Positions 1 to 57,369 of a stretch of 64,000 nucleotides of DNA are shown in pieces. Positions within the stretch are counted from its first letter, which is position 1; each line of letters opens with the position of its first letter. Both the position numbers and the translations under genes were made by a program. The stretch is from assembly GCF_016859285.1 (NCBI RefSeq), contig NC_053416.1, forward strand, positions 9,376,001 through 9,440,000, read 5' to 3'. Below the pieces are notes generated by a model, which worked only from the letters and a program-made list of their open reading frames with translations, had not been told where the DNA came from and made no database searches. This DNA is from Xiphias gladius. Lineage: Eukaryota; Chordata; Actinopteri; Istiophoriformes; Xiphiidae.

Positions 1-2295
1 TTTTGAGCACCAAAAATACACAGTTCAGTCCATCGTATTGGGGTGGAGGCAAAAGCACTGCAGACAGATATCTCAAAACCTACCTAACCAAAACTATCTG
101 CATGACCGGCTAACACCAGAGATAAGCCAGCGCTGAACCAGCTGATCAATTAGTTTATCGACAGAATCATAATTGGCACCTGTTTTGATAATTTAAGTCA
201 TTTTTACCAGCTTTAAATGCGAAATACCCATGTAGAGCTGCGACTGACAATTATTTTGATTATCAGTTAATCGGTTGATTATTAATCGATTCTTAGTTTT
301 TGTCTATAAAATTTAAGAAAATAATGGAAAAAAGCATGATATATTTTCCCACAGCCCAATATCATGTTTTCAGATTATTCAACCAACAGTGCAAAACCCA
401 AAGATACTCAGTTTATTATCATATATGATTTTAACAAAAGATCAAAATTCTCACATTTGAGAAGATGGAACTAGCAAATATTTGGTATTTTGGCTTGAAA
501 ATGACTGATGAACTGATTATCATAGTAATCACAGATTATCTTTCTGTCCACTGATTAAGCGACTAATCTTTGAAGCTCCATATCCATGCCAAATTCCAGC
601 TTCTCATTTGTGAAGATTTTCAGATTTCTTTCCTTTGTCTTATGTTCTTAGCTGGACAAAATTTGAAGACATCAACTTTGGCTTTAGTAAATTGTGATGG
701 GCATTGTACACTTTTTTCTGACATTTTATAGAACAAATAGATAATCAAGAGAGTAATTGACAAATTAATCGAATGAATGACAATGAGAATAATTGTTAGT
801 TGCATCCCTAAAGTGAAATGATATTTTATCTTCGTAATTTGGGGGAATCATCCCTTTTAAATCTATCGAGAAAAAATGAAACAGCAAGGCTGATCTTAAA
901 CCACTGGCCTAATTCTATGCAAACTCCAAGTGGCTTAATCTCTGCATGGAAATGCATTAGAATTACATGTAAAGCTTGTGGATACCACTGAACTTAGCAC
1001 GGCTTAAAGCAGCATGTAAGTGTCCTAGCCAGGTCGAGATGTCCTCATTTTCCAGCTGTTTTTCCTTTTTTGCTTTGATGGCCAGGCTGCAGTTTATGGG
1101 CTTGGCTACTCCAGCACAGAGAGAGGAGGGTTCCCCACGTGGCATTCAGATGTGAGGTTCCCTCCACGTTCAGTCTGAACAAGAAAGAAACCACAATGAC
1201 TCTGAGAAAGGGAGACATATTCTAAATTTGCTTGTGCAAGAAGTAAAGCTGCTGTTCGAGTCGTGAATTTGTATGATTTTTAGAGCTGTAATGTGGCTTC
1301 AAAAGTAATACATTCAGCATTAGTTAGAGTTATTGAAGGCCACGTTCAGCTTATTCAGTTGTTTTACCAAGCCTGTGTATTTTATTTTGTTGTGTGCTAA
1401 TAAGAGGAATTGGACCCTTGGTTTACGGTGATGAAAGTGCTAGCGTGCACATTTCAGGAAAGAGAAATGGGGAAGTTGCAGATGTCTCACTTGTTCAATA
1501 GTAATCTGATCATAATCAAATTTCTTTGCATTTCAGTGTGGCAGAGACCGTCAGTGAGTATAAAAACAAGAGGAAGTTGTAAGTAGTGGCCTCAGATACA
1601 CTGCCTGGGAGTGTGTCTGCGTTTGCATGCCGCTGTGAAGTTTGATATGGCTTAAGAGTCTGGAGCTCCCCAGAGGAAAGATGCAGAATAGCTTCTTTTG
1701 AGAACAGAAAATGGATGAAGTTCAGATCCTATGAAAGTGTGTGCGAGTGAAGTGTTCTTGGCAAAATAACGCGGCAGCCACCATCACACCCTGCCTGCTG
1801 ATAATAGCTCGCTCATGCAGGGCAGTGGCTAATGTTTGCAGTTACTCGTCTATTGTATATTTAGAGTAGGATGATTTATGTTTTCCGTTACTCAGCAAGT
1901 TGGGAAATCTTGCATTTATTTGGTTGAAAGCAGTATAAACTGATTCTGTTGGAGTTCTTGCTGAGACGTTCTTCTCATGTTTTAAGTACTATAGGAATGA
2001 TGGATAAGAGACATGGCTGGCTTTGGAGTGCAGCAGGCCCCGATCGTGCTCTCTAACACCGGGGCAGAGGAGCTACAGAGGAGTGAGGGGGTCTCTCCAG
2101 CCCCCACTTGACTTCGCCCTCCTGGCCTCCGCCGGGCCTCCGTCAGCGTCATCTCAGCTGGCTTTCTTGCATTCATCCTTATCTGCCTGACTGTCACACT
2201 AGGCCTAACTGATTTTTAATGAAATTTAAGAAGTAAATCAGGAACCCCTAAATATTATTTTATGTCCCCCTGACTCCCAAACACACCCAGCAACC
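1..2295. other. Intergenic / 5' flank of the sulfotransferase gene
   Basis: No coding exon is recognisable here. About 205-815 is a decayed interspersed repeat (separate entry). From about 820 to 2295 the sequence is unique-looking and AT-rich, with a more GC-rich patch at 2020-2170. Untranslated 5' exons of the downstream gene could lie here but cannot be fixed without transcripts. The short open frames have no family features. Confidence 0.5.
205..815. repeat. Percomorph-type short DNA-transposon repeat, copy 1 (decayed)
   Basis: The stretch has repeated ATTAATCGATT / GATTAATC blocks, a 'cagattattcaaccaacag' phrase, 'aacccaaagatactcagttt', and 'ctcacatttgagaagatgga' followed by 'agcaaatatttggtattttg'. 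The same ordered phrases recur at about 2860-3000, 15235-15600, 24440-24660, 24880-25030, 53915-54215, 55860-56000 and 62322-62575, so this is an interspersed family. The layout resembles the abundant non-autonomous DNA elements (hAT-like) of spiny-rayed fishes. That class assignment is from memory and tentative. Confidence 0.6.
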
Positions 2296-5200
2296 ATGAG
2301 GAACACCAGGTCGAGCCTGCTGCTGGGCTGCTTGCTCCTCTGCTCCGCCTCCCTGCTCTACCTGGGCATGAGCGGGATAGAGTGCCCGCCCAAAAGCCAT
2401 CGGTACAGGTGGATGGAGCTCCACCTGGGCTCAGCCAATCAGAGCCTATCCCTCACCGAACACTTCCCCGAAGACACACCGCTGATCTTCATCGGAGGCT
2501 TTCCCAGGAGCGGCACCACACTGATGCGCGTCATGCTGGATGCCCACAGTGCCGTGCGGTGCGGGGAAGAGACCCGAGTGATTCCCCGCCTCCTGGCCAT
2601 GCGAGCCACCTGGAGTCGCTCGGTTAAGGAGAGGATACGATTGGACGAAGCGGGTGTCACTGACCAGGTGTTGGATTCAGCCGTGCGTGCGTTCCTGTTA
2701 GAGGTGAGTTGGTCGGTGCATCATGCAGCCTGCTTAGTAGAGCTAAGCCGCAAAAAAACTTCTGCATCTGTTAATCGGCAAACACGCTTGGGTGTCGAGG
2801 GCAGGTTTCAGATTGAGGGTGTTGTGTTTATTAAAGGCGACTGTAAAAATGTAAACTAAGATTAAAAGTATCATTATTTAAAGATCATAAATGATTTATC
2901 TGCCGATTATTTTCTCATTCTAAAATGTAAAAAAATTGTAAAAACATACGTGTCACAATTTTTGAGAGCCCAAGTTGATGTCTTCAAATTGCAACAATCC
3001 AATTGGCTTTTTTGTTTTTGTTTTTAAAAAAAAACAAGATATTTATATTTGGCCTCTCAATATGAATATGAAAAATCTTAATATTAAAGAGGAATGGATT
3101 GCATGTAACGACACAGCCATTTCATGTTGTAAATATTACACGTCTCAGGTGATAGTCGGCCATGGGGAGCCTGCACCTCGCCTTTGCAACAAAGACCCGT
3201 TCACCTTGAAGTCACTCTCATACCTGTCACGCATCTTCCCTAAAGCCAAATTCGTGCTCATGCTACGAGACGGACGGGCAACCGTCCACTCCATGATTTC
3301 ACGAAAGGTATGCTGGTTTTCTTTTCTTATCAGGGTTGCAGGCAGACAAAGTTACTCACAGCCTTATCTTGCCAAACAGCCAGTTCGCAAGTTTGTCCTG
3401 GCACCACATCATGGCCAAATGAATTTCGGTCTCTCTCCACTCACAGGTGACCATCTCTGGCTTCGACCTGACCAGCTACAGGGACTGTCTGACCAAGTGG
3501 AGCAGTGCGGTGGAGACCATGTTCAGCCAGTGCCAGGCAGCCGGGAAAGGCAGATGTCTGCCCGTCCACTACGAACAGCTCGTCCTCCACCCAGAGGAGG
3601 AAATGAGGAAGTTGCTTCACTTCCTAGACCTGCAATGGGATCCGTCAGTGCTGCACCACGAAGAGCTGATTGGAAAGGCTGGCGGTGTGTCTCTGTCCAA
3701 GTGAGTATTTGACATGTGCGTGTACACCAAGTATACCTCTTGGCTCTAGTGGTATCTAGCCATGCAGATGGTTTCAGTTTCAATTGCAAAGGTTTTCAGA
3801 TATCTCAAAGCCTTGGTACAATAAAGTGAAACTAAAACTGAAATCTATATGACTAGATACCCAAAAAGGGTTAGGTGTGAATCTTTGAAAATTATAGTAT
3901 GGGTCCCGGGATATCTTCAAGTCATTGGAAAGTCTTTGAATGTCTGAAATTATGTTATACTTATTCAGGCCTGACATAGTCATAAAATACATTAACTCAT
4001 ATAATTATTGCCTTCATTTCAGTTCTAGAGGCCTTGAAACTTTTGAATGTTCTTTTTGTAAGAAATGAGTGCAGTCATGCATCCTACTAGTCAGGTTTCC
4101 ATCCAAACACAACACATATTTTAACAAAACTTCCAGCAAATCAGCAGAGAAAAGGCAAAAATGCACTGAGCACTTTATTAGGAACATCAGGGGGGCCTCC
4201 CTTTGCTCTCAAAACAGCCTCAGTGCTTCGTGGCATGGATTCCACAAGATGTTAGAAGATGGTAAATTGTGGATATAAAGGGAAGCACACGGTCAGCAAC
4301 AACACTCAGATAGGCCGTGGCATCCCAACGATGATTGATCGGTATTAAGGGGCCCACAGTGTGCCAAGAAAACATTCCCCACACCAGTACACTACCACCA
4401 GCAGCCTTTATTCTCGACACAAGGCAGGTTGGGTCCATGGGTTCACGCCGTTGACACCAAATTCTGACCCTACCATCTGCTGGCTCAGCAGAAATCGAGA
4501 TTCAGGACAGGACAGGCTACGTTTTTCCAGTCTTCAGCTGTCTAGTTCAACTGTTCCATTCTCAGTAAACTCTAGAGACTGTTGTTTATGAAAATACCAG
4601 GGGATCAGCAGTTTCAGAAAAACTCAAACCAGCCTGTCTTGCACTAACAATTCCTGCTACAGTCAAGGTCACTGAGATCACATTTTTCCAAATTCTGATG
4701 TTTAATGTGAACATTAACTGAAGCTCCTGACCTGCATCTGCATGATTTTATACAGTGCACTGCTGCCAAATGATTGGCCGATTGGATAATTGCATTAATG
4801 ATAAGCAGATGCACAGATGTTTCTAATAAAGTGCTGTGTACGTGTTTGTACGTGTGTGTACGTGTGTGTACGTGTGTGTACGTGTATGTGTATAGATCAT
4901 CAAGCACTGTGTCCTCCTGAAAAAGGCTGATTAGCCAAAATAAGCACAGTACTCAACTTTTCCGAAATGAACTAACCAGTGTAAAACAGCTGGTAAATTC
5001 TTTTCACACACAGAAAAATTAGCTGAATATTCAGTTGGTTGGCAGCTGACAATGCATCCCCTGAATATGTGATGTGTTCAGGCTATTGTTCTGGCTTTAA
5101 ATAAACTTGAGCACATTTTTCATTTCTGTGTGCTTCTGCTTTGGAGTATCAGACACCAGCTTAATAATCAGTGAGCAAAGTTGAATCATTTCAAGTAGCG

Positions 5201-7161
5201 GAAATTCCCCAACCCCACTGCCTCCGTAATGTGTGCCTATGTTCAATCGTGGTTATAAGGAGGCACAGTCCGTATACATGTTACAGAATTATACAAATCT
5301 TATTCCTGCCATGATTGTTCCTCCTGTGAATTCCCACCCTGCCGGCTTTGAGGAGCAGGTATATTTCAGGATAAAAGGTGTCATTTTTTTTTTTTTTTTT
5401 TTTTAGGTTTTCTGTTTATCTGTCAACATTATGGTTTCAAGGTTTTCTCAACACTGCCACATACAGTGTGTTGATGTGGTGGTGAATACCGAATCCCTTT
5501 ATTTTAATTTTTTAATGCCTGGAAACAAACTAATTTTTAGATATTTAGTCTAAGAAATATCAGAACCAGAAACAGAAATGTAACCCCTTCCCAGAGTCAT
5601 TAAATATTATTTTACTATACAGTGATAGCTATTGCTCCTGCACCTTCAGCACACTTTATTAGTTTTTTTCTAAGTGTTTTTTTTTTTTTCCCACCCAGTT
5701 AAAATTTAGCACAGGTTGTGAGTCAGATTTGAGTCACAACTGAAGCAGCCAAACCTTTCAGGGTCAAGCAAGGCTTACAGACTTCCCTCAGTAGATATTT
5801 AGTTTGTCTTTCACCACTTATTTGTTCGTGATCCAAGTAGATCATCTCTTTGCAGGGCAGAGGCTCAGGGGGATTTAGTCGCTTCATTCAGCCATACTCA
5901 AACCTGGCGTGTATCTGAAGGAATGAGGCAACAGACATCTGCCGTAGCACCATGATGTTGATTACTTGTTCAATGATTGGCGCAATATTAGTCACAAATA
6001 TTTTATAGCCTACTCAGAAATGTAAATTATAATTATTATAATTGTGTGCATAGGATTACACACGTTGATTTATTTAGGGTGGACAGGTGGATATGTACGG
6101 AAGATTTTAAATACCTAAATTAAAACAAATCAAACAAAGAAATAAGGTGAAATACAATACACATTGTCATATCTATGTCCTTTTTATGTATTCATTTACT
6201 GTGACATATTTAAATGGAAAAGCATATGTTCAAAGCTTATTGTCTTTAACCACTGAAGGAATTTTTGATTTTATTTTATTTATTTATTTATTTTTATTAA
6301 TTGATTTTCATTAATGTTTTTCATTTAATTATGACACAGTAAATAAAAACACAAAAGGAAATAATATGTAATTGTGTATTGTATTTCACTTTATTTCCGT
6401 GTTTGATTTGATTTTAATTTAGGCATTTTAAATCCTTCACAGCTTTCCCACTCTTCAATGGCTCATTACAAGTATCTGTTTTTGGAGCTTTTCCTCTTCC
6501 TTATAAAAACTTTAGTATTATCATGGTTGAACACACGCGCACACACACACAAACTGGGCTTGTGTTTGCCTTTCTGTGCAGGGTTGAGCGTTCGACGGAC
6601 CAGGTGATTAAGCCAGTGAACACAGACGCCCTCTCCAAGTGGGTGGGGCACATTCCCTCTGATGTGATGAACGACATGGCTGAAATTGCCCCCATGCTGG
6701 CTCGCCTTGGCTACGACCCTCACGCCAACCCCCCCAGCTACGGAAGACCAGAGTCCATGGCGTCTCCCCTCAGCCACACACAGGTGAAGTTAAAAAAATC
6801 TGATCTGATTCATTTTAAAAAAACGATTTTCAATGAAAAGTACAAAGATTTTTAAAAATGATTTTTTTTTTTTTTTAGGGCTGCATCTTATGATTATTAT
6901 TGTATTCGGTGATTTTTCCCAATTTCCCCAATTAGTTGTTGTCTGTAGTCCCTACAGTCTGGACTGTATCTTTTATTTTTTTAAATTATCCACATGAAAA
7001 AAAGCAGTTGGAGAAACAGTTGGAGGTTGCAGCATAAAGGAGGTTGATCATAGATCCTCTATGTCTCTTCTTTCAGCCTTGATAATTCCATAAATCAGTG
7101 AAAATTGTATTTTTTCTTTCTTCAGAATTCGAAAACAGCAGAAACTCCACACGCCAGTTAA
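2296..7161 (+). CDS. tpst1l: Protein-tyrosine sulfotransferase (TPST1-like), 5 coding exons
   Basis: The enzyme moves sulfate from PAPS to tyrosines of secreted and membrane proteins in the trans-Golgi. Exons: 2296-2703, 3149-3307, 3447-3700, 6582-6783, 7126-7161 (352 aa; human TPST1 is 370). All junctions keep phase with GT-AG ends. A type II signal anchor covers residues about 8-25. The PAPS 5'-phosphosulfate loop is GGFPRSGTT (67-75). GEETR carries the presumed catalytic base E92, CNKDP holds K151, and [12 protein letters not shown] with [21 protein letters not shown] form the 3'-phosphate site. N48 (NQS) is a glycosylation sequon. Odd points: Phe replaces the usual Val in GGVPRSGTT, and the tail after NPPSYG is short and unlike TPST1 or TPST2. 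The family is certain; the symbol is a best guess, since TPST1, TPST2 and a fish duplicate share this core. Intron 3 (2.9 kb) holds two mobile elements. Confidence 0.93.
4161..4840 (-). mobile_element. Internally deleted Tc1/mariner element with terminal inverted repeats
   Basis: The left end at 4161-4186 (gcactttattaggaac) is repeated in inverse at 4818-4836 (ttctaataaagtgc), giving an element of about 680 bp inside tpst intron 3. Reading the - strand, 4438-4230 encodes a piece of Tc1-type transposase with the MDPTCLV and [18 protein letters not shown] blocks. A second piece near 4700-4650 encodes EKCDLSDLD from the N-terminal region. The intervening DNA-binding and catalytic parts are deleted or frameshifted, so it is non-autonomous and dead. 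Confidence 0.8.
4836..4892. repeat. Tandem tgtgtacg-type short repeat
   Basis: An 8-10 bp unit (cgtgtgtgta) is repeated about five times immediately outside the right inverted repeat of the Tc1-like element. Confidence 0.8.
6102..6437. repeat. Fold-back (long inverted-repeat) element
   Basis: The left arm 6102-6216 and right arm 6322-6437 are inverted copies. 'aagattttaaatacctaaat' answers 'atttaggcattttaaatcctt'; 'ggtgaaatacaatacac' answers 'gtgtattgtatttcact'; and 'tttactgtgacat' answers 'atgacacagtaaa'. The arms are about 115 bp around a loop of about 105 bp of T-rich sequence. It lies in the sulfotransferase intron 3, 145 bp before exon 4. No coding capacity is seen. Confidence 0.85.
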
Positions 7162-8011: not shown

Positions 8012-8267
8012 CTACCCAAGAATATGAGGGCAAACATATGATGATCCAAACTCGATCATGGAGCTAAAATGGCCTTTGACTTCTGTTGCATAGTGAGCCG
8101 TTAGCACCAGGGCAGGCCGCTGTGGCTGCCCGTCTCTGGGTGTGACGAGTGTCTGTGGGCGGGTTGGGGGGGGGGGGTGAGGCCGCACCCCCCCTGCTGC
8201 TAGGCTGAGTGAGGCGGACCCTGGGTCGGCGGGGCTTCTGAACTGCACCTGATCAGGTACAGGAAAC
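8012..8267 (-). other. Possible terminal coding exon on the minus strand
   Basis: On the - strand an acceptor (ctctcagttctccag) is followed by an open frame of about 85 codons ending in TAG at 8012. It contains a Pro-rich stretch and then RPALVLTAHY. This lies downstream, in the - sense, of the opsin pseudogene and could be its cytoplasmic-tail exon, because TMT opsin tails can end in a similar hydrophobic-AHY phrase. That comparison is from memory and weak. A poly-G run (8167-8177 on +) makes the region unstable. Confidence 0.25.
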
Positions 8268-8680
8268 ACCTGGAGAACTGAGAGAGATACAAAAACACAG
8301 GAGCAAAAGAAATGTGACGCAGAGACACGCGCGCATTCAGAGCTGCACTGGCATTTTAACTGTTTGAACAAGAGGAATTTCCACTAACATTTCACAGGAG
8401 CGACTTTTAGATAGAAAAATCTTTCCTCCTCAGCTAATGTTTGACATGGGATGTAATCGCAAAGGATGTTAGTTATAGGTGAGATGTGCCGTCTAAAGCA
8501 GTGATAAAAGCGAAAAGAGCATATAAGCCAGTGCTGGATTACCAGCCAGGCGGTCCAGGGGCCCTGACGCTCAGGTTGTGTGTGTGGCGATTACATTGTG
8601 TGGATGTTATTAATTACACATTTGTTCGGTAATATTCCAGCCTGGTTTCAGACCTCTGAATTGCCCCTACATCTTCAGTT

Positions 8681-10860: not shown

Positions 10861-12049
10861 CTGGTTGTTGAGCAGCACTTAAATAACAGGGTTGAGGACG
10901 GTGCTGGTTTTTGCTGGCGACAGGCGGCACCAGGCCTGGCTGTCCCAAAGAGGACAGCCAGGTAGCACAATAGGTACCCCGTCACCATGGAGACGACCGA
11001 GAGAAGGATACGACCTTCCCTCCGCTCAGCGGAGGACTGGTTGATCCCGGTGACCTGGAGACACACACACACACACACACACAGTGAACAGAAGGAAGTC
11101 CTTAATGTTGGAGCTAGACGTCGCAGAGTACACCGAGGTCAAAGGTCAAGCTGCGAGCTTCACCACCTCTCGTGCAGCCAGCAGGATCCTCACGTAGCAG
11201 AGCAACATGAGCAGCGGAGGCAGGAGCGGGCAGAAGACGAATAAAGAGCTGGTGTAGGAGCGAGACGTGACCGAGAGCTGGTGCCGCTGGGCCGAGCAGG
11301 TGGTGCCAGGACCCTCCAGCCTGTAGCTGCTCCACGACACAGGACATACACTACGCTCTGACTTCATATGATTCATATGTAGCATTAAGTCCCTGTTCTG
11401 TGTCATGATGTGTTTAGTATTTCACTGTTTTTCTCTGCCCGGAGCCTTGACTTTTTTTTTAGCTTCATACTTTTATGTGTTATAACAGGCGATAGTTGAG
11501 GTGGCCCCAGATCTCGTCAACACTCTATCTTCAAGAACAAAATATGAAATTCTGCGCACAGTAATATAATTCAGTCGGGTGTTTGTCAAACACAGACAGT
11601 GCAAAAGAATCAAAAATGAGGTCCACGGCTGAGTTTTTGGTGTGTGGGGCTTATCAAGTGAATAAAACCAGCACGTACTTTCCTCCCAGGTTCAGCATCA
11701 TCAGACTGAATAAATGGATGATCTAACGAAGGAACTGGCGGGTTAATATCGGGGCAGTACAGACCTGCTCCAGCCCAGCAGCGTCGGCCGAGTCCAGACC
11801 AGTGAGCAGAGCCAGGGGGCCGCTACAGCGAGCCCGGCCCTGCGGTACTGAGAGGGGTCCGACTGGGTGCTGCGGAGCACCACCGAGTACCGTTCAAAGG
11901 AGAGCAGAGAGAGAGAGACACCAAAGATACTATACCTGACAGAGAGAGAGAGAGAGAGACAGGTTACAGGTTAGTCAACAAATCTGTTGAAACACTACAA
12001 CATACTTCCACTTGAATTTTCATGACCAAAATAACAAAAATCCGGAGCG

Positions 12050-12285
12050 TGGGACGTTAACTACTTCTCCTCCACTATATTTCACAAGAAAATAATTTAC
12101 TTTTTAGTCCACTGCATTTATCTGAGAGCTGTATTTACTGTTCAAATTAATATTTTATATCCAAACCATATGATGAACCTATAAGATCTGGTTCATTTTT
12201 ATAAACTATATACCCAACAGTGTACAACGCCGTTAAAATGAGCTCCAACTCAACCGGCCGTAAGGTCAAATGCTGCTTACAAGTT
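12050..12285 (+). repeat. Common fish interspersed repeat (ctactcctccactat...caaatgctgctta)
   Basis: The ordered phrases 'ctcctccactatatttcaca', 'ttactttttagtccactgca', 'acccaacagtgtacaacg', 'gttaaaatgagctccaact' and 'aaatgctgcttac' are those of an abundant fish dispersed repeat. A related - strand copy lies at 36000-36215. It sits in the intron between opsin exons 2 and 1. Confidence 0.55.
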
Positions 12286-12612
12286 TGTTTATTTGAATAT
12301 ATGTTTGGATCCGTGCTAGCTGTTACTGTGGTGCAACAGCCACTCTTCCTGGGGTCCATAGAAGGAAACAATTACTGCACCATTTTCATGTGGTTATGTG
12401 AAACTAATAGGGCTACATATAGTAGGTATGCATATACTGTACATGTGCACACACACACATAATACATGTACTTACATATAAAAGAGACCAAAGAAAATCT
12501 AAAACACATTGTTCTGCTTAATTTTTCATGGTTATTAGATTCTGTCATAGAAAACTGGCAGGATATCCGCATTTGAAAAGTTGATACTGGTGAATTTTTG
12601 GCAAAAAAAAAA

Positions 12613-12700
12613 AAGACAAACTACTACAAAAGTTCTTGTGATTTAATTTTTTGTCAGTCCACCAACCAATTAATCAACTAATTATTTCGGCTCTAGAGTG
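12613..12700. repeat. Fragment of the ATTAATCGATT repeat family
   Basis: 'tttttgtcagtccaccaacc' followed by 'aattaatcaactaattattt' matches the end of the dispersed family described at 205-815. Confidence 0.5.
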
Positions 12701-13112
12701 CTGGTTGGTTTGGGGAACTAAAAAAACTGACATGTAGCCCTTAGTGGGGGGGCCAACAGGGGCCCAACAACCAATATCAGTAGGAGGTTAATCCGGCCGT
12801 GCTTTTGTATAAGAGCGCTCAAACAGGACCTGCACCGATGACCATAGAGCAATGTGGAGCCACGTTCATTTTCATTTTCATGCAGGAGCTTCAAGTGACC
12901 TCGGTCGCTCACCGAGGAGCGCGTTGGAGAGGGCGTACCACCGGCACCCGTGGCACCCGGTCCGCCGCCTGCCCCGCGCGCTGGCCGCGAAGCTGAGGGA
13001 AGTCCCGAAGGGGTGCCGATGTTCATCAGCAGCAGGCCCGGGGGAAACGTGAGAAGACCGCGGGCACCAGGAAGTTACAGAGGAAGCCCAGGACCAGGAT
13101 CAACCTAGATTG

Positions 13113-13162
13113 CGGGCCAATCGATTAGTTGAAGAAATAATTATCGGATCAATCGATAATGT
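13113..13162. repeat. Short repeat fragment abutting opsin exon 1
   Basis: 'ccaatcgattagttgaagaa' followed by 'tcggatcaatcgataatgtt' is a terminal piece of the same ATTAATCGATT family. It lies directly upstream, in the - sense, of the surviving TM1 code, where the extracellular N-terminus of the opsin should be. Confidence 0.5.
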
Positions 13163-14480
13163 TGAGTTGCATTTGCGAAAAACCTTTGGTGTTTTCAAGG
13201 CGTCAGGGGGCTTCTGTTAGCCCAGGGGCGGCCCCCCGTTTATCCCCTTCGTATCTACTGCGTACGAGAAGGTGTTCCGCTAAGCACCGGCACCGCAGAC
13301 GGAGGCAGAACGCCGACGTCCTGCAGCGCCGGGTCCCGGTGCAAGGGCAGACGGTCTGGCCCCGGGCAAGAACCTCGGCCCTGCGCTTTTACCGTCAGCC
13401 GGACAGACGCCACTCGCAGTAAGGGGCTGCTTCCAGTGTTCTGCCGTCACAACACAGTTCGTGTTCGGCGTGACTCCGCATCAGACCCCCCGCCGCGGAT
13501 CGACGTCAAACACCCACGCGTGCCCCCCCCCCCACACACACAGCGTTTTAAACGTGGGAGGAAGTGTGGCTCACACTTGTGTCGGCACTTGAAAACCTTC
13601 CGCAAGGGACCCGTGGTGACACCTGTTGTACAAGGCAAAAGCGGTTCTTGTGGGCTCGGCCGACGCGGCACGGGGACGGCCAAAGGCTCTTGAGCGCGCT
13701 GTGCGACCATCTACGTCCGGCCGCAGCGCTTTTTATTGAAATAAGTTCAGGCTTTTATACATTTTCATTCAGAACTGTTTAGTTTTTTTTTTTTTTTTAT
13801 CATTTAGATAGTGTAGCAACCATCGTCTGGAATGAAAGCGGACACTTATTATCTAACTGAAAGGGCGAAAAGGTCTGAGCAGGCACTTCGGTGCAACACT
13901 AAACTTTTATCACTGGAGGGTGGTATTTTATCTGACATGGAGGAAAGGCGTCAGCTGCAGTAAAAGCTACAGGCCCTGCATTCACCCCGCATGGTACCAA
14001 GGTGAAAATGAAGGGTCGTCATCCGTTTACAGAAAGTTCAAGAAGGTAAATACCCGCTGCCTTTGCTGTCAAGTTGTAGCAGCTGTATTTATACTATTTC
14101 TGCATCACAACGACAGAAACCGGTGGATATGATTGAGTTGTTTTTATATTTAATTGTTTTTATTTGCATGGGTTTAAGGAGTTGAGGAGAGTTGGTAAAG
14201 GTGAGGGGATTGTTGAGAAGGTCGAGGGAGAGGAAGGAGAGGAAGGATGGAGAGGGGATTGGGAGGGTGGAGGGGTAATAAGGGGTAAAGGGGTGGGTGG
14301 GTTGGGGAGAGGTTACTCCTCTCTCTTCCTTTTATTTGCCTCCTTTTCCTTCTTCTCTCTCTTCTTCATTCCCCTTTTCTCCTTCGTCTCTCTCTCTCTC
14401 TCCTTTTTCTTCTTTGCTCTGTTTGTCCTTCTTGTTGTTCTCTCTTTCCACTTTCTCTTTCTTCTCCCGCTCCTTCTTCT
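13163..14480. other. GC-rich then pyrimidine-rich spacer
   Basis: 13160-13720 is GC- and CpG-rich with no family-like open frame. 14300-14540 on + is a long TC-rich tract (ctctctctctcc, cttcttctc), reading as Lys/Glu/Arg codons on the - strand. The long + strand open frame through 14164-14946 is the antisense of this tract and is not a gene. Confidence 0.45.
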
Positions 14481-14495
14481 CTTTCATTTTCTTCT

Positions 14496-14990: not shown

Positions 14991-15234
14991 AAGCACAACT
15001 ACATTTACATCGCCCAACATGGCTCATAAGATATAATCACTTCAAGTCTTTTTTAAACAATATTATAATATAGATTATTATTTCAACACATCAGTTTTCC
15101 CATTTTAATGTTTTGTTTTTCTAAAGTTACACACACCTTGCAGTTTAAAAAAGTTTGTATTTATAATAACAAGTATGTCTGGGTCCCTTAGCAGATGATC
15201 CTGGTCACCCCCTCAGAGCTCCAGATGCTGGACA

Positions 15235-16843: not shown

Positions 16844-19800
16844 ATGCTGAATATGTGGAAAGTCAGAGAGCTGGTGGACAAAGCGTGAGTACCGCGGAGC
16901 AGGCGGAGCAGGTGGAGCTGTGGTGCACTGGCTCGGTGGCTGCTAAGCTAACCGGCCGGCCGTGGCCGGGCAGCATCAGCAGCTTTTACCGCCGAGCGGA
17001 GAGGATAGAGGCCGTGACGTCACGGCCCTAGCCCTCAGCTGTTAGCTTTCACTAGCTGGCTAGCTGCCAATCTTCAACCTTGTAGCGTAAATAGAAATGT
17101 GTGTTTTGCGGTGGCGTCTCCTGTGGTGCCTTCGCCCACGCTAGTTCGCGTGGGACAGGAATAATACGATATTGCGATATTGTAAACTGCAAAATCATTT
17201 GTTTCCGACCCAGAACGAAAGCTATCCAGTTAGCTAATTCCGCTAGCATTTCAAAGCCCAGGTCGGCTGTGTTATGCGTGCACTGTAACTGTTAGTGCTG
17301 CTGCAGGATCACGCCCTGTCCCACTCAGGTGATGCCCGCTACCTCCAACGTGCTTTCACCTAGCATCATATCCTGACCAGAAAGCGAAGCATTAATGATT
17401 GTAAATTTCAGGGGCTAGATAATTGCATGTTTCCTGCCAATTAGCTACCAACCATGTCTCGCAGTGTAGCTTCACTGGGCCCATGCCCCTATGGCACCGG
17501 ACAGATGGACAACAAACCTTGTTAGCCGCCGAACACTTCATACTGTAGTAGCAAATGCAGGTGTAGCAGCCTACTACATTGTGTTGTTTGTCTGATCAAA
17601 GATGCTTCTTTGTGATGTGTGTCTCTGTGATTGTAATTTTATCAAGTAGTCTATACAATTCTAATAGAACAGCTCTACAATAAATCCTACCTTCATGAAG
17701 GTAGCTTTTGTTGAAATTGTTTCAGACAGGTTTGATTAAACTATATGATAATTTTGTAGGGTGTAGTCTATTATTTTGTCCACCCAATTTATGTCAACGA
17801 GGGCATACTATATAACAGAAATAATCTCTGTATAATGCAGTACAGTTCAAAAGCAACACAAACTACATCCGCCAAAATGATCATAAAGTTGAATGAACAC
17901 TTCTCTAAAACAGTGTCAACAAACACTTAGCATTTTAACCTTCATGAAGGTAGGATTTATCACAGGACTGTTGTATTAGACTGCATTAGTTTTAGCTAGG
18001 TGGACCTAATAAACTGCCAACTGAGTTTACAGTCATTTTGGGGGAAGAACAACAGCTTCCTGTCCTGCCTGTTCCAAGAGGCAGATTTAGTTATATGAAA
18101 AAATCTGCTGAGTAAAACCCAAACCCTCTCAAAGAAAAGAATCAATCTTGGTTTTACTCCGCAGAATTAGATGAGATAATTAAGTAAGTCAGCCTTGTGG
18201 AACATTCCCTTTTATTTAATACCAAGTAAACAACTTTTGATTAGGAGCTATCAAGAGGGCTAGGTTTGTAGTATAAGGTTTGCTAAAACGAAATATGTTT
18301 TCAAGTAGCTTTGCAAAGGAAACTGTCATCATGTGTCTCATAGAGCAACAGTAACACAGTTGCATTAAAAGCATGAGAGAAGTGAATAAGAGATCTAATG
18401 ACAGTATGGAGTAAAGGTTCAGTTCAGACTAGTCTCAGGCAGTCCAAAATCCTCGTCCAAAGTTAAGGGGCATATAGTATGTGTATATAAACTTACAATA
18501 CACATTAGAATCATTATCTTGGCTGGTATTAAAGGACAACATTTTCCCATAAGAATAGTTTAGCGTATAATCAGATTATTCTTTCTATACAGTGCCAAAA
18601 AAAAAACAGAATTTGCTGAGTTTGAAATACTAGTCTCACATATCAGTGCTGCATCTGTTTTCACACAATAACTTTTTAGATACTCCTCTTAAATGTTAAG
18701 TCCAATCTCACAGTTTCACGTGGAAAGTGCTTGATACTTCATTTTCATTTTCATAACCAATGCTGAAGATTTGAATCTGTGATGACATTATATCTCAGCA
18801 CCTTTTTTCACTTTCAAATAGCACCTAAACTATTAATAAGGAGTTGTATAATTTATTTTTTCTGGTATACGATCCAGTGCTTTTGGCCAGTATTTAATCA
18901 GTGCATCTCTAAAATAGCCCCATTGATTGTCGAAGAATCTTTTTTTTGCTGTGGTTGTTGTTTCTGTTTTTTAGTTCACTGTCTCTCCTTTAACACTTTA
19001 GTTTTTTACTAAATTATGTATTGTCATTTAGATTTTGTTTGTAGAGTTTGTATGTCAGTCTTAATTTCCTATGTTACACACATTTCAATAGAGTATTCAT
19101 GCTTGTTATCAGAATGATGAGCCAAAAATTAAGTCTTTTTTTTTTTTTTAATTTTGTGCATTGGGTTATATACTCAGTGGCCACTTTATTTCTTACACCT
19201 GTAAAGTCTAATGCAATCCAATACCACAGCTCAGCCATAAATTCTACCTTTACAAAGATAATAATGGTCAGTTTTGTTCTACACTGTCGAAGAGATATTT
19301 ATGTAACTATACATTTATTACTGAGGTTGTAGTTTGTAGGGGTGTTCAACGGGACGACATTATATTGAGAGGCGTTTCTAATGTTTTCCCAACCTCAACA
19401 AGAATGGGGAGAAGTTTTAGAAACACATTTCTATACAATTCAGTCCATTCTAACACCACCACTACATATGACCTCAGTAATAAACAGTACAGTTGAGTCA
19501 ATGACTCTCAGAACTTTTTAATCAATACTGAACATTATCGGTTTCGTAAAGGTAGAATATGTGTTGTTGTACTGGATTAAATTAGATTGTATAGTTGTAC
19601 CTAATAAAGTACCCAGGGAGTTAATTTTCTATCTCAAAACATAATCTAATTTTGTTACAGTTCTTTGTTTTCTTAAATATTTTCTTATCTCTTTCATCTA
19701 TCTTGACATTTACATTTTTGCTGTGTACACAAGGTTGGTAATTAAAAGTTAGATGTTTCAGCTCCCTGTTGGTTGTTAACATGCACTAGCATTTTGGTAG

Positions 19801-21128
19801 CAATCCTGCTAAAGGGATAAATTCAGGCTCTGTATTAGCACTCATACTGTCGGGTACATTTTGTTTTCTAACAACACTGAAAATTTGAAAAAAAAAGTGT
19901 GATGGAAAAACACTGCAAAGTGACAAGGCAGGTATAGTTTGGCATGCTTGTGCCATGCCAAAAGCATCTTTGTTTTTCATGGAGATTGAAAGGTTACATA
20001 CATTTTGTCCTGTATACACAGTGATGATACACACTGATTTGCAAGTTTATTAGGTACACCTAGCTAAACTTAATGTAGTCTAATACAACACTCTTGAAGT
20101 AAATCCTCCCTCAGTGAAGGTTATAATGTTCAGTATTTGTCTAAACTGTTTCAGAGGGGTGTGAGAGAGGTGTTATATAGGACTGGATTATTTTTAACCA
20201 GTTGTACCTAATAAACTGGCAACTGAGTGTACATTGGTATGACCAACAAAGCTTCCGAGAGAAAGTGGTCCCTAAGTCATGTTCTTAATGTCATCACATC
20301 ACGTTGTTTCTTTCCACATTATACATTTTCAGTCCAATGAACAGAAGCATTGTCAGAACAAAAGTCACAGTAAGAATGCTCACGTGAAAATCATTGTAAT
20401 TTTTCCAGTGACTGTTCGCTCACAGTTTGAGACGCTGCATATTCCAGCTGGCTCTGCCTTTTTAAAGGATCAATTATATCATAAACCTGATAAGAAGATA
20501 AAGAAGAGGAAGTAGAGAAGAAAGTTGCATTGAGGAAAGATGAGTGAAGAGACCAAGGAAAGGAAAGAGTGAGAACAGGGAATATGAAAAAGAAGCAACA
20601 AGAGCTTTAGATGGAGTAATAGACACCAGCTCCCATCAGCGGTTGGTTGTGCCTGGCTTGTCACAATGAATACACTCTATTATTGATCTACCTCATCAGA
20701 GCTGGCACTGGCAGCCTTGTTTTTTTTTTCCTTCAAATTAAGAGTCACGCTATTATGGAACACTCACTGTCTGTCTATCTTATCTACTGACAATAATGGA
20801 GTCTAAGGCATCTCTTATATTCCTTTAGCTAGGAGGGTGGCAGAGATGGTGAGAAAAATGAAGGAAAAGGAAGCAACTACTTAGGTATAAATAACTAATG
20901 AGAGGACTGAAGATTGGGAGAAGTGAGGAGCAGGAGATGAAACAGGATACAATATGAAGTGGAGGAGTTAAAGAAGGAAGGAGGGGAAGGGCAGGCAGCA
21001 GGAGCATTAGATAAGAAAGAGTTGTGGGAGAGGTGTGTTTAAAGTTGCAGTGCTTTTGGCTATTTTTTTTTTCCTTTTTTCGCCAGGGATCCGTTGAACA
21101 AGTCATGCCACACGCATCAAGAAATGCA

Positions 21129-21159
<31 letters not shown>

Positions 21160-24100
21160 TACACACACACACGCACACAAAGTAAACAGGCAGCAGCAGG
21201 TGAGCCCAAAAAGACAATGACGACAGGAAGCTGACATCGCTTAAGGGGAGGTTTGGCTGTGTCTCCCTCGCTCTGTTAAACACACAAACACACAAACACC
21301 AAACTCACCTCATGTTCGTGCGTAAACTGTCTCATTCGCCTTTGTGCCACAAAGGGCTGAATATTTTCTTACACGTGTGTATGTGTGCGCACACATCCAT
21401 GTCTGTCCTCTGAAGTGCAGTGGTCAGGACAAAGGCTTATAGAAAACTGTCATTCATTATTCACTGAACCGGGTTCTCCTTGTCTTCAGAGGAACATTCA
21501 TTTTCTCTTACTTGATTTCAGTGTTTGTGTTGTGTTTATGACACACGCATGAATATAGCTATTTCTTGTGATAACCCTGTTTTCCACAGTTATTCTCTGT
21601 TCTGTGGTGTGTAGAGTGTGTGTAGAAGTTAGATATGATGATGATGCTCTGCTAGCTCGAGAGATCATTTATTATTTAAGAGTTTCTCTTCTTGTATTTT
21701 TTGTGTTCTGCTTTTTAAATGCGTCCATGTGTGTTTTTTACTTGTCTGCATTTCGGTCTGCTTGACCTCTGGAAATGTGACCAGTGGACATTTGCTGATA
21801 GACAGCAAGGCTGTCTGATTGAAAAGCCGACAATAAGAAATAGTGTGTTCACAATAAGTGGACAGAAAGACGAGAAAGGAAAGCCACAGGGTTTCGCCTT
21901 TACATGTTTGAAATACTGATGGTACTACTAATTTATGAAGAAAATATACGTCTGTGTCAACAGCACCAACGTGGTGATGAACTACTCAGAGATTGAGTCC
22001 AAGGTGAGAGAGGCCACCAATGACGACCCCTGGGGACCCTCTGGACAACTGATGGGAGAAATAGCCAAGTATGTGTAACACACACATTCGCACAGTTACT
22101 GTATATGCATGCATGATATCACTAAGGCAGCAGATGGACACATTCAACTGAGGCATTTTAGGACGGAGGAACATGAAGTCTGTTAGCAAGTCAAGTAAGG
22201 ATAGTTCTCCACAGGCTCTGTTCACTAGGACTGATTCTGCTTTGGTTTACCTGCATGGGTTTTCCCAGCATCACTTTTTTTTTCACTTGTGTGCATGTGT
22301 TTGTGTGTGTAGATCTACCTTTATGTATGAACAGTTCCCAGAGGTGATGAACATGCTGTGGACCAGGATGCTGAAGGACAACAAGAAGAACTGGAGACGA
22401 GTCTACAAGGTGTGGTCACACGTTGGTTGGCAGTTTTGTTGGTGGTTTCCCTCGTGTGCCTTTGTGTTGTATCTGGGCTGTATTGTGCCGTGCAGCCCAG
22501 TTCTGTATTAATGTGAGCTGAGTCACACAGCTTGGTTGTGTCTGTAATCAGACACCAGCAGGGGTTCCAGTGTTTACACAACTGACTGATTCGAGACACT
22601 TTTGACTCATTGATTCCCAGTTTTTCTTTCTTTTTGTTTTAAATACACTAATATGTATACATTTTAACTGCTGTCAAATTGTTTCACTCACATGATTGTA
22701 CATATGAGGTGCAGTGATTTCAAAAGTGTATCAGTTTGATTCTCTGCTTTACTGGAGCAGTTTCTTGGTTCCTTCCCTAATTACTACATTTATACACACA
22801 GATATGTATGAATCCTTTAGTTGTATAGTGTAAAGATCAGAGCAGTGCATCTCAACCGCTTTCTTGTGTCCTACCTGCATAATCATACAAGACTGATATG
22901 CAAATATTATAAATTATGCAAGAGCCAGGGAAGAGTGAGTTTGGATTTTTTTAGAGAGCAATTAGGCTGAGTTTAAGAGAGGAGACATGATTCAGTGCAG
23001 GGGAACTGCTGAAAGAAAAAATAATTTCACTTGAACAGTTGAGTAAAGAAGAACTGACTTTAAATATATTTTTTAAACATTAATTTTAAGATTAGTTCTC
23101 ACTGAGCAATGCTGACTACATCTCCTCATCATTTCTCTCTCCCAGGCTTTACTGCTGCTGGCCTATCTGATCAGGAATGGGTCTGAAAGAGTCGTCACCA
23201 GCTCCAGAGAACACATTTATGACCTGCGATCCCTAGAAAACTACCACTTCATTGGTGAGTTTCTAAATGATAGTCAGCCACCGCTTTATTGGCTACATTT
23301 TTTTTTCTTATTCTTCTTTACTTTTATGTGAATTTGAGATGTCTTGTGCGCTGATTAGACGCTAGTTTGAAAATCATTGAGGGCCAGATGTAGTTTGAAT
23401 GTCATTTGTTCAAGTGTTTGCAATATGCAGCTCTCAACTCATTGCACACACATTTAGGGGTGGATTGCACACTAAGTAAGGGGAGACATGTTAACAGAGG
23501 ATGATTATCTATTCAGCTGGGTTTACTAAGGTCATGCAATTTGCATTGGGCAGTTTTGCAAGGAGAAGTTGCAAGGTGGCCTCTAGCTTCGAAAAGGGTG
23601 CGTAAACTTAGTGCAAATGGGATTTATAAGCGCCAAAGTAAGGTTGTAGAGGGGAACGTAAACGTGAATGAAATATAGGTTTATATGTTGCTGAAACCGG
23701 ATTATTAGAAAGAAACATTTGTATTAAACTTGAATTTTAACTTGACCAACAATGTAAACTCTGTACTGTAAACTCCATACACACTGCAACTGTACATTTG
23801 TTTGTTATGTTAGAGCAGAGTAGCACAGAGCACTTCTGGCCTTGAGTGTCAAAAATAGAAAGCGTTGATTCTCTTTGGAGCAGGAATACAGTACATTCAG
23901 TAAAATTTTATTCCCATATCAAATTGACATTTGATTTGATCTTTCCTGTGTTCAAGTAGAAAGTTTGGGCTGATGGTGGGAACAGGGGAAAGCTCAGGGA
24001 TATCAAAAATGTAATTGTTCTTCCCTTGTGTGTGTCTGTGTGTGTGTGTGTGTGTTTGTGCTCTTGTGTTTGCTGACAGATGAGAATGGTAAGGATCAGG

Positions 24101-27100
24101 GCATCAATGTGCGTCAGAAGGTGAAGGAGATGGTGGAGTTCATCCAGGACGATGACAGATTGAGAGAGGAGAGGAAGAAAGCCAAGAAGAACAAAGATAA
24201 ATACATTGGAGTCTCCTCCGACAGTATGGGCGGAGGAGGAGGCAGCTTCAAGAACTGTAAGTAATTCACTACATCTTCTCGGACAGCTCAAATCAAAAGT
24301 GGATTAAAGTGTAAATGGAACTTTCCCTGTCCAAACCCACATGAATTTAAATGTATTAGAGGGAGGATATTGTGTAAAGCAAGTGTGTGTCTTTTTGATT
24401 GGGTATTAAAAGTTAAACTTGAACTGTTTGTACTAACAAAGTATTTGAAATATTGATTTATTGATTAGCTGATTAATCTCCTAAATTTATAAATTTGTAA
24501 AAAATGGCAAATCGCTACGTCAAAAGCATCCTCACATTGGACAGTCTGTAATGACGAAATGTCGAGTGTTTTTAATTGGTAAATGACTTGAAGCATTAAT
24601 TAATCATCAAAACAGTCATGGATCAAAATTCTGACGAATTATTTATAGTTTCAGCATGAGAGTAAAGCCCCTCTTTATCCAGTAAAGAAACATTTCAGGT
24701 GACTGCTTGAGCAGCCAACCCTGAGTACGTTGATGTTACTGGATCGATATGGAAAATGTAATACAGCATGACATTTTGTTTTCTAATGTATTTCATTCTT
24801 GTCTGCCCATTTACTTTAAATTTTTTTTTTAAAATGAATTAGTGTTATGCTTTTAATATGCCCTTTATTGATTAAGGGGTATTAATGTCGAAACCATTAG
24901 TAGATTATTCACTTGACAGAAAATTAATTGATTGGACAATTTAATTTAATTAATCTAAAATGCAAAACATTTTCCAGTTCCAACTTCTACAATGTCAGGA
25001 TTTGGTGTTTCATATTATTGTAAATTGTATATCTTTTGGTCCTGGACTGTTAATCAGACAAACATCTGACAAACAATAAATATATATTTTTTATACCAAA
25101 TGATTAAAAGAAAAATATATTAAAATCATAATTTGCAGCAGAATGTTTTTCATATCATATATCATCATTAGAATAACAAGTTTAGGAGGTTTATACCACT
25201 AGTATAAGAGACGTTTATGTCCTTTGGTGGATGCCTCTGAAGCTGCACAAGTGAACGAGTTTACAAGGTCTCTCCCTCTCTCCGCCCTCTCCTGTCTTTT
25301 TCCTTCCAGCTAATGAGTTGGATCGGAGTAAGTGGGATGAGGACTGGGATAAGAGCAGAGGGGCTTTCCCCTTTAGTGAGAAGCTCGGAGAGATCAGTGA
25401 CAAGATAGGCAGCACCATCGACGACACACTCAACAAGTTCAGGAAGAAGGAACGAGACGACTCACCTGACAGAATCAGGTAAACATTTACACTGCCAATG
25501 TCCACGAACACACCTCTATAGTGTTTTTTTTTTTTTTTTTTTTTTTTAAATGTCTGAACAAATGCTTGCTTTGAAATGGTCTGAGGGTGTATACCAACGT
25601 TACTACATGCTTCCTTGGTTGTGTATGCAGGTGGTGTTATTGCAATAACTTATTGGCTTCCTTTGTAATAGTTGCCATTTTTTAAAAACTAGAAACAACA
25701 AAAATAATACAATGCAAAGAGCCACCCACATTGTGCATCAGTTGGCTCTGGGCCTCCCGGTCACATGTGTAAAATCTTTTTAAACCTCTGTGTCTTGGAT
25801 TATCCATTACATAACCAAACAATGATGCACAGACACCACTGCACACAAATCTACAATAGTTGCAAAGCAACACAACAGTAAATAGGAAAATCTCCAGAGT
25901 GCTGTTTCTCATATATCCATATTCTGGTTGCCATAGTGATAACGAGGAGGACCGAGCATCGAGAAACGGTAGGCAGGAAACCCTGGAGTTCAAAGATGAG
26001 GAGGAAACTGTCACAACGAAGAGCATCCAGATAACACAAGCAACAGAAACCACAACCACCACCACACGGAAACGCAGCGGAGCAACAAGCAGCAAGACTC
26101 TGGACCTGGGTGCTGCAGCTCACTATACTGGAGACAAGAGCCCAGAGGAGAAGGTACTCACATAAACGCTCAGGTTTTTTCAAATGTGAGACACATTTTC
26201 AATAGCACATGTTTAACTGCTGTGTCTCTCTACTTCTCTCGTCAGTCATCAGTCAGGCAGTCATCCAGTAGCGGTCTAGCTGACCTTTTGGTGATCGACC
26301 CTTCATCCAATCAGAGCACTGCAACAGGTAATGACAGAACTGCTACACTCACAAAGATAAGGGGGAAATGAAGGCCATGAAGACGGTTTTAAAATCTGGG
26401 TCTGTGTTGTATGAGTTGTCCCTCTTCTGGGACAAGGGGAGTTCTTTGTCTTTCGCTTTTTGTATGAATCCGTGTGTCCGTCCAAACAGGTGGCAGTTCA
26501 GACCTCATTGCTGGTTTTGCTGACTTCTCCTCTCCTGCAGCCTCTGCCAGCCTCCCAACCTCCACCGGTAAACTTCTTCTTCCCTCTGTAACCTTCCGGT
26601 GCTTTCACACCTGTAGTTTGCTTCACTTGGTCCGGAGCAAGTGAAAAAATTGACACAAATTATGCAAGAGGAGTAAAATTGAAGTTGTACAGACTGAAAT
26701 ATAACTAAATGATTGGACAGTTTTGGCGATTGTCATCCTATATCATCAGCGCATCACCAGGACCCATGTAGCACATCAGTGCTTCTACTGGGCTTATTTA
26801 TGTTCTCTGGTGTCACAAAGAGCAAACGAAGAAATGACTGATGATAAGTATTATTAGTAGTATAAGGCTGCAGATGGCGGCATGTTATAAATAATGACAA
26901 ACAGGTAGAGACTAACAAAATGGAGTCTTACACAGCAGAATACCCGGGGGTATTACTTTGGGGTCACTATGTCACACACTTTTTAATTTTTAATTTTACT
27001 CAACTGCCAACGTACATGGAGTAGGATACATATAAGCAGGGAAAATCCTCATACTCAGGCGCAGATGTGCATGTGTTACTATAGTTACCGAATGATTTAC

Positions 27101-30100
27101 ATAAATATGTACATCAATTATACAGATCGATTAGAAGATCGTTTCCTGAACAGTTCATGATCAGCAGATGGGTTTAATAGTAGTTAAGCATTTTAAAATG
27201 TATGTAAATCGCATATGTACTGTCACAAAGATTCTACGGTCAGTCTGTTTCCTTTCACACCACAAATGAAATGCACCAGAGTCCATTTGGAGAAGCGTCT
27301 TTTAAATCGGTGGTGGTCCAGTCGTTTGGTGAACACCTGGGTTTGATTGACAGCTTTCACGCAAGCCAAAACGAACTGTACTAACTGAACCTAACAGGTT
27401 AGGCATAAATGCACCCTTAAGGGCTGAAATATACTCTCTTAGAACAGGGTCAGGCGATGTCTGCCATGACAAAAAACATACTGTACATAGTGTAGTATGG
27501 TTGGTTTTTAGAAAATGAATGCAAGTTTAGGACACGGTGAAGGAGGGGGACTGTTCCTGTCAAAATTCATGATGTTGTAGTCACAACTGAACATAACACT
27601 TCTCTCTTATGGCCAGCTGCTGCGTCATCCAATGGAAATGGAGAATTTGGAGACTGGAATGCCTTCTCGGCCAACCCACCAGCTTCGTCTAGCTCTGCTC
27701 CATCCCAGCCCATCACCGACCTGTTTGGTGGTGTCCAGTCACCCACAGCCCCAGTCTCTAATCCTGCCCCCGTCCCACCTTCCGCTGAGCTGTTTGACCT
27801 GATGCTGATGGGTGGAGTTAACCATCAGATAACCAATCCACATACAACACTGAGTGCGTCTCAGAGCATGACTTTCTCTCTGGGAGGGGCAACGCCAGGA
27901 GCGTCTGTTGCTATGCCCACCATGCCCCTTTCTCGCTCTCAACAGGTAGTTATTGTACCCATCACAGGAAGTGATAACCTAGTTTGTCTTAAACTGTGAG
28001 AAAGTCTCAAAATGGTACAGGTGATGATTTCCACTGAAAGAGGGACCAGAACTGTCTCATGTCTGTTACATACATCAATTAATAGTTTAAATTAATGCAA
28101 TAAAAGTGCAATAAAAAAATGAGTAAGGTAATGACACAAACACTGCCGACTTCAAAAATTTCAGTGCACCTAAGAATGCTTTTTTGTTCTGATTTTCAAT
28201 TAATGGAGGTTGTTAATCGCTTTTAGTTTTTGGATTTTGGGTAAACATTGGAGACTTTTGGAGAAACATTACTCCCTGTGGTTCCGGGTAATTTAACTCT
28301 CCTTTCTGCTTGGGATTTTAAACTTTGTAAAATTAAAGGATAAGATCTATAATAGACATGGACATTTAGCAGGACAAACCAAAAGGAAGGTCAATAAACG
28401 CGATTAAACGACCAGAAACGTGATTTTAAAGAGAATAGCAGTATTTACCTGTACATGGCATTACAACAGCCCATTGATGAGCTTATGACTTACAGTTCTC
28501 CTCATGGCTTTAATTTTATTCTGTTGTCTTATGGTTCCCAAACAGGCCTATGTATTGGTGTTAACATGTTTCCGTTTATTAGATTGGCAAAACAATTTTG
28601 ACTTCTTCATTGTTCGCACAAAAACTGAATTTCACTTGAGCTAGTAAAATGCAGGAAAAGGAAAGAAAATTTTCCTGCTTTAAAAACTCAGCTTGACTTT
28701 ATAAGACAAGGATGTTGTTCTGGACGGAATTTAAATTACAGAAGGAACAGTGAATTCTCTGAAAAACATTAGGTTATTTCAGCTGTAATTATTACGTAGG
28801 AAAGGGGTGAAACATTACTCACATACACGCTCCAGAGTGGAATAAAATCACTGACCAGAGCAGATAATAATAAAAATCACCCCACCTCTCCTAGAAGAAA
28901 TAATTCCCGTCCAAATGGGGCTTATTCCAAGGTTCTTGATTGGATATTTTTTGAGTTCAGTGATCTTTTGATTTGTATTATTTAAATAAATATATTTCTT
29001 CTGTATTTATCAAGTTGTAAAATATTTGTAATTTGTTGCAGAGCTTGGGAGGTATGACATCTCAGCAGCCCATAGGACAACAGCAGAATGTTGGGGTGGG
29101 AGGTCAGGGATCGTTAGGGTCGACGTGGTCTGACCCCTCTGTCAACATCAGCCTGGACTTCCTATCAGCAGGCCTCAACCCCACTAAGACACCGCCCACA
29201 CTCAACAATATCATCCAGCAACAAGGTATAACGTTTCACTGGAATTCATTTTCTGTGTGCAGATGTACAGAAGAAAGACATAATCATTATTAGGCAAGGT
29301 ATCTGCAGGTGTTGAAAAGCCTTAAATGGCCTCGGTTTAAGTTTCCTTTGAAAAGAGCCATCAAAAGTAATAAAAAGTCTTGAATTTAAAGCAGTAATGC
29401 TATTTATTAATTGTTTTTGTGTGCGATTTTAGGCAAAAACTGTCTGGAAAATCCCCAGTACTATTCTTCCAGACCTCCGACCTCATGTAAAATTCATATG
29501 TCAAACTTAAATTTGGTTATTTGTTTTGTTAATTGGTTAATCTGTCCACTCTTCCATTTTCTGCTACTTATCCAGGTCCAGGTCACGTTTAATGATGAAT
29601 TAATTGTAATATTATTAGGAATTATTCCTCTGTACAGCTGGGATGTACTGATAAAACTGTGATATAAATGTTAGTTCATTCACGGACTTGGTAAATAATT
29701 CTAGGCCATATTATCCCTCCTGGTTTTCATTGATATCTTTCATACTTGGGCTGGTATGACTGTGAAACAGCTATTAAATTCTGTTCAATTTCGTAAAGTC
29801 TTGAATTTAACTTATGGGTTCATACATTTCAGAGTGGGGATTCGAATGAATAAGGTCACCGAGTGATTTAGTTGGACAGGTCAATGTTGGGAAACATTTT
29901 GAATACGTGTTGTTTAGATTAGGCTGGTCAAAGTAATTATCTGACAAAAATTACCGACCTATTACATTTTATAAGGCTCCATAACCCAAGTGGTAAAACA
30001 GAGTGAATTAATTCCTCCCTGCTCATTTGTGTCTGTGCAGGAGTGCCTCCCGTCAACCTGTTGGCCCAGAACTTCGGAGGACTGAACCTCAGCTCCCCGC

Positions 30101-57309: not shown

Positions 57310-57369
<60 letters not shown>

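Follow-up and report, generated by a model that had tools for sequence, protein, structure and literature searches.

A TMT opsin pseudogene between tpst and clint1 in Xiphias gladius, with a 430-bp insertion in its second exon

To which opsin group did the broken gene between tpst and clint1 of Xiphias gladius belong, are all of its apparent introns native, and how was the gene lost? These questions are raised by a 64-kb stretch of DNA (C17:9376001-9440000; hereafter the window, with positions counted from its first letter) in a genome of 690.8 Mb in 1298 contigs. The remains lie on the minus strand and both neighbours on the plus strand, with the exons of tpst (tyrosylprotein sulfotransferase) at 2230..6790 and those of clint1 (ENTH domain) at 16850..30447, the outer bounds being approximate. 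A limited literature search found no published account of synteny between clint1 and a tmt opsin. Also on the plus strand of the window are an HMG-box gene at 34207-34632, which we take to be SOX30-like, TCERG1 at 46468-53226, recognized by its TCERG1 WW and FF domains, and a prenylcysteine lyase gene at 57063-62321. Between the opsin remains and clint1, at 14300-15010 on the minus strand, a coding-like coiled coil with shifting frames gave a weak Golgin_A5 match (E 0.00029, under the Pfam cut-off) and may be a further gene or exon in decay. Two minus-strand open stretches, at 4220-4501 and 56766-57077, are presumably pieces of Tc1/mariner transposase, judging by their motifs. Scans of the 64-kb window for Rfam families and, with the bacterial code, for tRNAs gave no match.

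A preliminary description of this DNA had recognized an opsin by a series of short blocks, and all of them (LGFLCNFLV, FERY, EGPGTTCS, YLLCYL and AKTSTVLNPVI) were found in order on the minus strand. When bovine rhodopsin and human OPN3 were used as tblastn queries over the 64 kb, the exon-2 piece was the top match for each (E 8.8e-5 for rhodopsin, 1.6e-4 for OPN3), and rhodopsin gave further weak, collinear minus-strand pieces covering residues 295-312 of TM7 (E 0.074) and 46-58 of TM1 (E 2.1). At E<=1e-5 the joined read-through matched 50 distinct PDB sequences, and opsins fill the top 31 places, with E 7.5e-21 for the best opsin and 1.8e-8 for the first non-opsin receptor. Best matches to non-opsin receptors, which had been named beforehand as the outcome that would speak against an opsin, were therefore not seen. 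The read-through also matched the 7tm_1 family at E 8e-22; taken singly, two exon pieces matched it at E 9e-5 and 2.9e-4, both under the Pfam cut-off, and three further pieces had no Pfam score. Against the PDB, the first part of exon 2 gave 73 matches at E<=1, led by nine opsins (best 0.00029) with muscarinic receptors next, and the second part gave 19, led by four opsins (best 0.022). The opsin signal thus lies in the joined pieces and not in any single piece. Among the residues kept are K296, whose AAA codon stands at 10911-10909 within AKTSTVLNPVI, E181, the cysteine pair, ERY and Y113.

The read-through scored alike against rhodopsin and OPN3 (87.8 and 88.2 bits), so its identity as a TMT opsin rests on Y113, on the exon plan and on comparison with its own genome. 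Tyrosine at position 113 marks TMT opsins, aspartate marks Opn3 and visual opsins have glutamate, according to PMC5115664 and PMC2781857. The dead copy has Y113, in GCRWYALSN, and lacks the D113 of Opn3 (encephalopsin), while its E181 lies in YRLEGPGTTC; melanopsins also carry Y113. A protein search of the same genome returned 81 matches at E<=1, three of them from the window itself, and included five strong, stop-free TMT matches, on C23 (60% identity), C465 (52%), C16 (49%), C14 (48%) and C5 (45%), with the next opsins at 33-34%. Only the C23 gene was read across all four exons (385, 329, 234 and 231 nt, encoding 392 aa); the other four are represented by exons 2 and 3, and exon 3 too is open in all five. 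The six TMT rows, dead copy included, fell on one side of a branch, away from Opn3, rhodopsin and pineal-type opsins, with support of 91/96 in the exon-2 tree and 88/99 in a second tree, and the dead copy was 45.5-61.8% identical to the TMT rows versus 34.0% to the Opn3-like row. Its exon 2 measures 329 nt, or 169(+2)+160, once a 2-nt excess and the insert described below are set aside. For zebrafish TMT2B, the junction differences in PMC5115664 give three introns, an exon 2 of about 328 nt and an exon 3 of about 233 nt. The earlier assignment to the TMT type is thus borne out by Y113, the exon lengths and the grouping with the five TMT genes of this genome: by descent the dead gene belongs to the TMT opsins, though it is no longer a working one.

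Four native exons with plausible splice sites had been described, and GT-AG dinucleotides are present at every junction. The exon 1 remnant (12913..13103) runs from TM1 to the start of TM3, keeps Y113 and ends at the donor G|GTGAGC. The next two pieces, of 171 nt (11765..11935, with ERY) and 160 nt (11167..11326, in open frame, with E181, C187, TM5 and the donor GAG|GTGGTG), had been taken as the second and third exons and are instead the two parts of a single native 329-nt exon. The four-exon reading was rejected, exon 2 being unbroken in 5/5 TMT paralogues and an 8-bp duplication lying at the interruption. The exon 3 remnant (10861..11054) measures 194 nt (234 nt in its C23 counterpart), keeps K296 and ends at the donor CAG|GTAACA. 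Farther downstream, at 8200..8277, a piece reading FSRCFLYLIRCSSEAPPTQGPPHSA and then TAG follows an acceptor with 14 of 17 pyrimidines in phase 0, and from its sequence it is probably the last exon, overlooked in the preliminary description; its similarity is modest (E 0.001 with the C-terminus of the C23 protein over the window, 0.032 with the whole C23 protein). If it is accepted, the extent of the remains changes from 13112 to 10861, as first given, to 13103 to 8200. The native introns sit at the places they have in the C23 gene, in phases 1, 0 and 0, and a processed pseudogene was rejected on this ground. Three introns are conserved across all c-opsin groups, TMT among them (PMC5648526). 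Of the claim that the intron structure was preserved, what stands is an intron-bearing gene in place between tpst and clint1, and what falls is one of the three introns then apparent.

That one is the middle 'intron', which is not native but a 430-bp insertion (11335..11764, minus strand) with an 8-bp target duplication. The insert, which begins with GT and had been read as an intron, is flanked by perfect copies of TGGAGCAG, the first at 11765..11772 and the second, ending in AG, at 11327..11334, where the C23 gene has the single sequence TGGAGCAGCTAT. Besides C23 and the TMT pairs C14/C5 and C465/C16, three further rows are continuous at this site, namely L025, L019 and L021, which by their motifs we take to be Opn3-like (L025) and pineal-type opsins. 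Within the window, 8-mers repeat at the spacing of the insert at 2 of 62900 positions, a figure uncorrected for the terminal AG of introns. Apart from itself, the insert matched the genome once, over 59 bp at 81% (C10:8014503-8014561), with no second full copy, in a repeat search that skips very common words; this partial match being all, identification with a known repeat was rejected. No terminal inverted repeats were found in the insert. Among the features of hAT-type and other DNA transposons, the 8-bp duplication is therefore present, and terminal inverted repeats and a further full copy were not found. The 430 bp were inserted with duplication of their target, and they may then have been spliced out in life, have helped to kill the gene, or have arrived after its death.

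The first of these possibilities is that the piece became a gained intron, inserted into a living gene with its own GT, supplied with AG by the duplicated target and spliced out with the protein left unchanged, the gene dying later for other reasons. The insert with one copy of the duplication reads GT...AG in one register, and skipping it restores a junction of the C23 type; among simulated inserts with an 8-nt duplication, 748 of 20000 (3.7%) offer any such register, which makes the register a suggestive sign of an intron. The second intron of rhodopsin lies at codon 177. An opsin on C21, of visual type as we take it from its motifs, appears to end an exon at the same codon and phase as the insert (177, phase 2; TGG TCC AG|GTAATT), a junction read from the exon end alone, the next exon not having been seen. 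Transposon-derived intron gains at convergent positions are described for fish slc26 genes (PMC12357937), and PMC9860276 describes introners that bring a single splice site with them and recruit the second from the target duplication. Against a gained intron stand a donor (CAG|GTCTGT) and a pyrimidine tract (9 of 17) that are both weak, the missing terminal inverted repeats and second full copy, and a second visual-type opsin locus (L048) in which no junction was readable; moreover, the gene is dead, so its splicing has not been under recent selection. By our reading, the junction of a melanopsin-like gene on C11 lies four bases away from the insert site. We regard a gained intron as a tentative reading, somewhat less probable than its alternatives taken together. 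A new intron made from foreign DNA, inserted with an 8-bp target duplication and in exactly the codon and phase of the second intron of visual opsins, in a gene that later died, would be a parallel gain at one proto-splice site within one family, and this we hold to be unlikely, though worth stating. That an ancestral visual-opsin intron was kept in the dead copy alone was rejected, as it would need several independent exact losses and a chance 8-mer.

Within the TMT group, the dead copy is paired with the C23 gene (L042, L012, L043), its closest paralogue, at 61.8% identity over exon 2; the two share the 329-nt exon and the place and phase of three native introns, and differ in that the C23 gene is open for 392 aa with exon 2 unbroken. 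In the exon-2 tree they join at 84/84, with C14/C5 outside at 97/97; support for the pairing falls to 72/81 when exon 3 is added, and C23 itself is slightly nearer C465 (63.3%) than the dead copy. That C23 also carries a clint1 paralogue, at 20.34 Mb, favours a relation of C17 and C23 as duplicates. The C23 opsin lies at 11.89 Mb, 8.45 Mb away, and about 6 kb of sequence read on the upstream side of the C23 clint1 lacked both tpst and an opsin, which points to rearranged blocks or to a pairing looser than it looks. Downstream of the C23 opsin (L043), at about 11894636-11894882, is an open stretch that we take to be like the start of a CD40-ligand-like protein; it had no Pfam match.

The grouping that competes with this pairing would place the dead copy with C465/C16, a TMT2-like pair beside sialyltransferase genes. 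It is not rejected by the topology test (p-AU 0.176; 0.057 for a grouping with C14/C5). Serine at position 186 is a mark of TMT2 (PMC4619619); C465 and C16 have S186, whereas the dead copy, like C23, has T186, so it would be a TMT1 or TMT3 opsin, with the proviso that T186 stands at a decayed site that could mislead. The dead copy is 54.1 and 48.6% identical to C465 and C16 as against 61.8% to C23, and it has 12 columns in common with C23 only, compared with 9 for C14/C5 and 4 for C465/C16 when any member of a pair counts and 3 for each when all members must agree. Each of the C465 and C16 opsins adjoins the 3' end of a sialyltransferase gene, a neighbour kept by both duplicates. These ends score 21.7 and 18.5 bits, under the Pfam family cut-off of 23, and that on C16, the one compared, matches solved ST6GAL1 at E 3.1e-31. 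A neighbouring st6gal1 or gpr35 is the criterion for TMT1; the two ends presumably resemble st6gal2 more than st6gal1. In chicken and zebrafish TMT2 adjoins st6gal2, an arrangement reported in PMC5115664 that the C465/C16 setting fits. T186, the shared columns and the identities make a place of the dead copy with C465/C16 improbable, and the C23 gene remains its probable partner.

Read against that partner, the dead copy has accumulated many lesions. In exon 1 the first ~53 codons are missing and the remainder is shortened and lies in three frames; a search with the N-terminal 60 residues of the C23 protein gave no match near this exon, the best (E 1.0) lying elsewhere. A 2-nt excess in a CT run shifts the frame of exon 2, and exon 3 is 40 nt shorter than in C23, which removes most of the stretch from late TM6 through the loop into early TM7. 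Directly after NPVI, a TAA at 10881-10879 replaces the tyrosine of NPxxY, and the last exon reaches its stop after 25 codons compared with 76 in C23. The deletions, frameshifts and TAA claimed in the preliminary description were thus recovered, with frameshifts in exons 1, 2 and 3, and an open frame through seven helices and NPxxY is absent from the dead copy. Single-base lesions could be assembly errors. Decay is also visible in exon 2, where the dead copy departs from the five paralogues at 10 of the 47 columns in which these are invariant, as compared in leave-one-out counts with 6/53 for C23, 3/50 each for C14, C5 and C16, and 0/47 for C465, and where it has a branch of 0.62 in the tree versus 0.20 for C23. 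None of the 81 own-genome matches was a near-identical second copy, so the assembly gave no sign of an intact haplotype. With TM6 and TM7 mostly missing and the frame broken ahead of the retinal lysine, the photopigment would no longer be made. The stretch at 13104-13220, in the very place expected for the missing ~53 codons of exon 1, is AT-rich with ATCGATT-like words; a repeat may have inserted here and severed the 5' end, and a search of the window at E 1e-3 gave no further match to the stretch.

Several independent lesions in an intron-bearing copy agree with the earlier view that a native gene died in place. The gene is very probably a unitary, not a processed, TMT opsin pseudogene and the lost member of a duplicate pair, whose probable C23 partner stayed, as did four other TMT genes. 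The C17/C23 pair may date from the teleost genome duplication, and redundancy may then have permitted the loss, the spare copy dying while its partner kept the work. The loss is most simply that of one redundant duplicate. The preliminary description had suggested instead that the light habitat of the lineage could lie behind it. TMT opsins are indeed broken in the cavefish Phreatichthys andruzzii (PMC3167789) and Lucifuga gibarensis (PMC7826195), but this is support by analogy; the exons read from the five TMT paralogues all have open frames, and no stop interrupts 75 of the 81 own-genome matches, opsins and other receptors alike. Redundancy being the simpler account, we did not retain the habitat suggestion, and a loss driven by light would on this analysis be very unlikely. 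That the gene still lives by unusual splicing that restores its frame is scarcely credible, for although splice sites formally persist and exon 2 has an open frame in its second part, no splice choice was seen that brings back the missing 53 codons at the start, the lost part of TM6/TM7 or the tyrosine that gave way to TAA, and the 10 changed columns of the 47 also argue against it.

The closest known cases are those of the two cavefish. In P. andruzzii a frameshift likewise disables a TMT opsin ahead of the retinal lysine, as described in PMC3167789, but it is a single frameshift, in a gene still expressed, in a cave species, whereas the copy described here combines several lesions, deletions and an insertion among them, and shares its genome with five further TMT genes. 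The P. andruzzii gene is named tmt3a in PMC7826195 and placed in TMT group 1 in PMC3679003. Pseudogenized tmt3a of L. gibarensis (PMC7826195) is again a fish TMT opsin, but one from a cave species. For the insert, the nearest likeness is to the intron gains in slc26a2 of notothenioids (PMC12357937), in which new intron-like insertions occupy sites converging on those of relatives; there, however, similar sequences are interspersed in the genome, while for the 430-bp insert a single partial match and no terminal repeats were found, and its host gene is dead. In kind, then, this is an ordinary, unitary pseudogene of a duplicate opsin, and its unusual part is the insert. A formal GT-AG 'intron' of a pseudogene can be an insertion, and comparison with paralogues reveals such cases; if intact orthologues splice the insert, a vertebrate GPCR would offer an intron gain whose mechanism can be read. 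Copy number of TMT opsins differs among fish, with two copies in each of three groups in zebrafish, and in medaka two in groups 1 and 3 and one in group 2 (PMC3679003). The dead copy of X. gladius shows one route to such differences, a duplicate dying in place, and argues that an absent TMT copy need not imply a shift of habitat.
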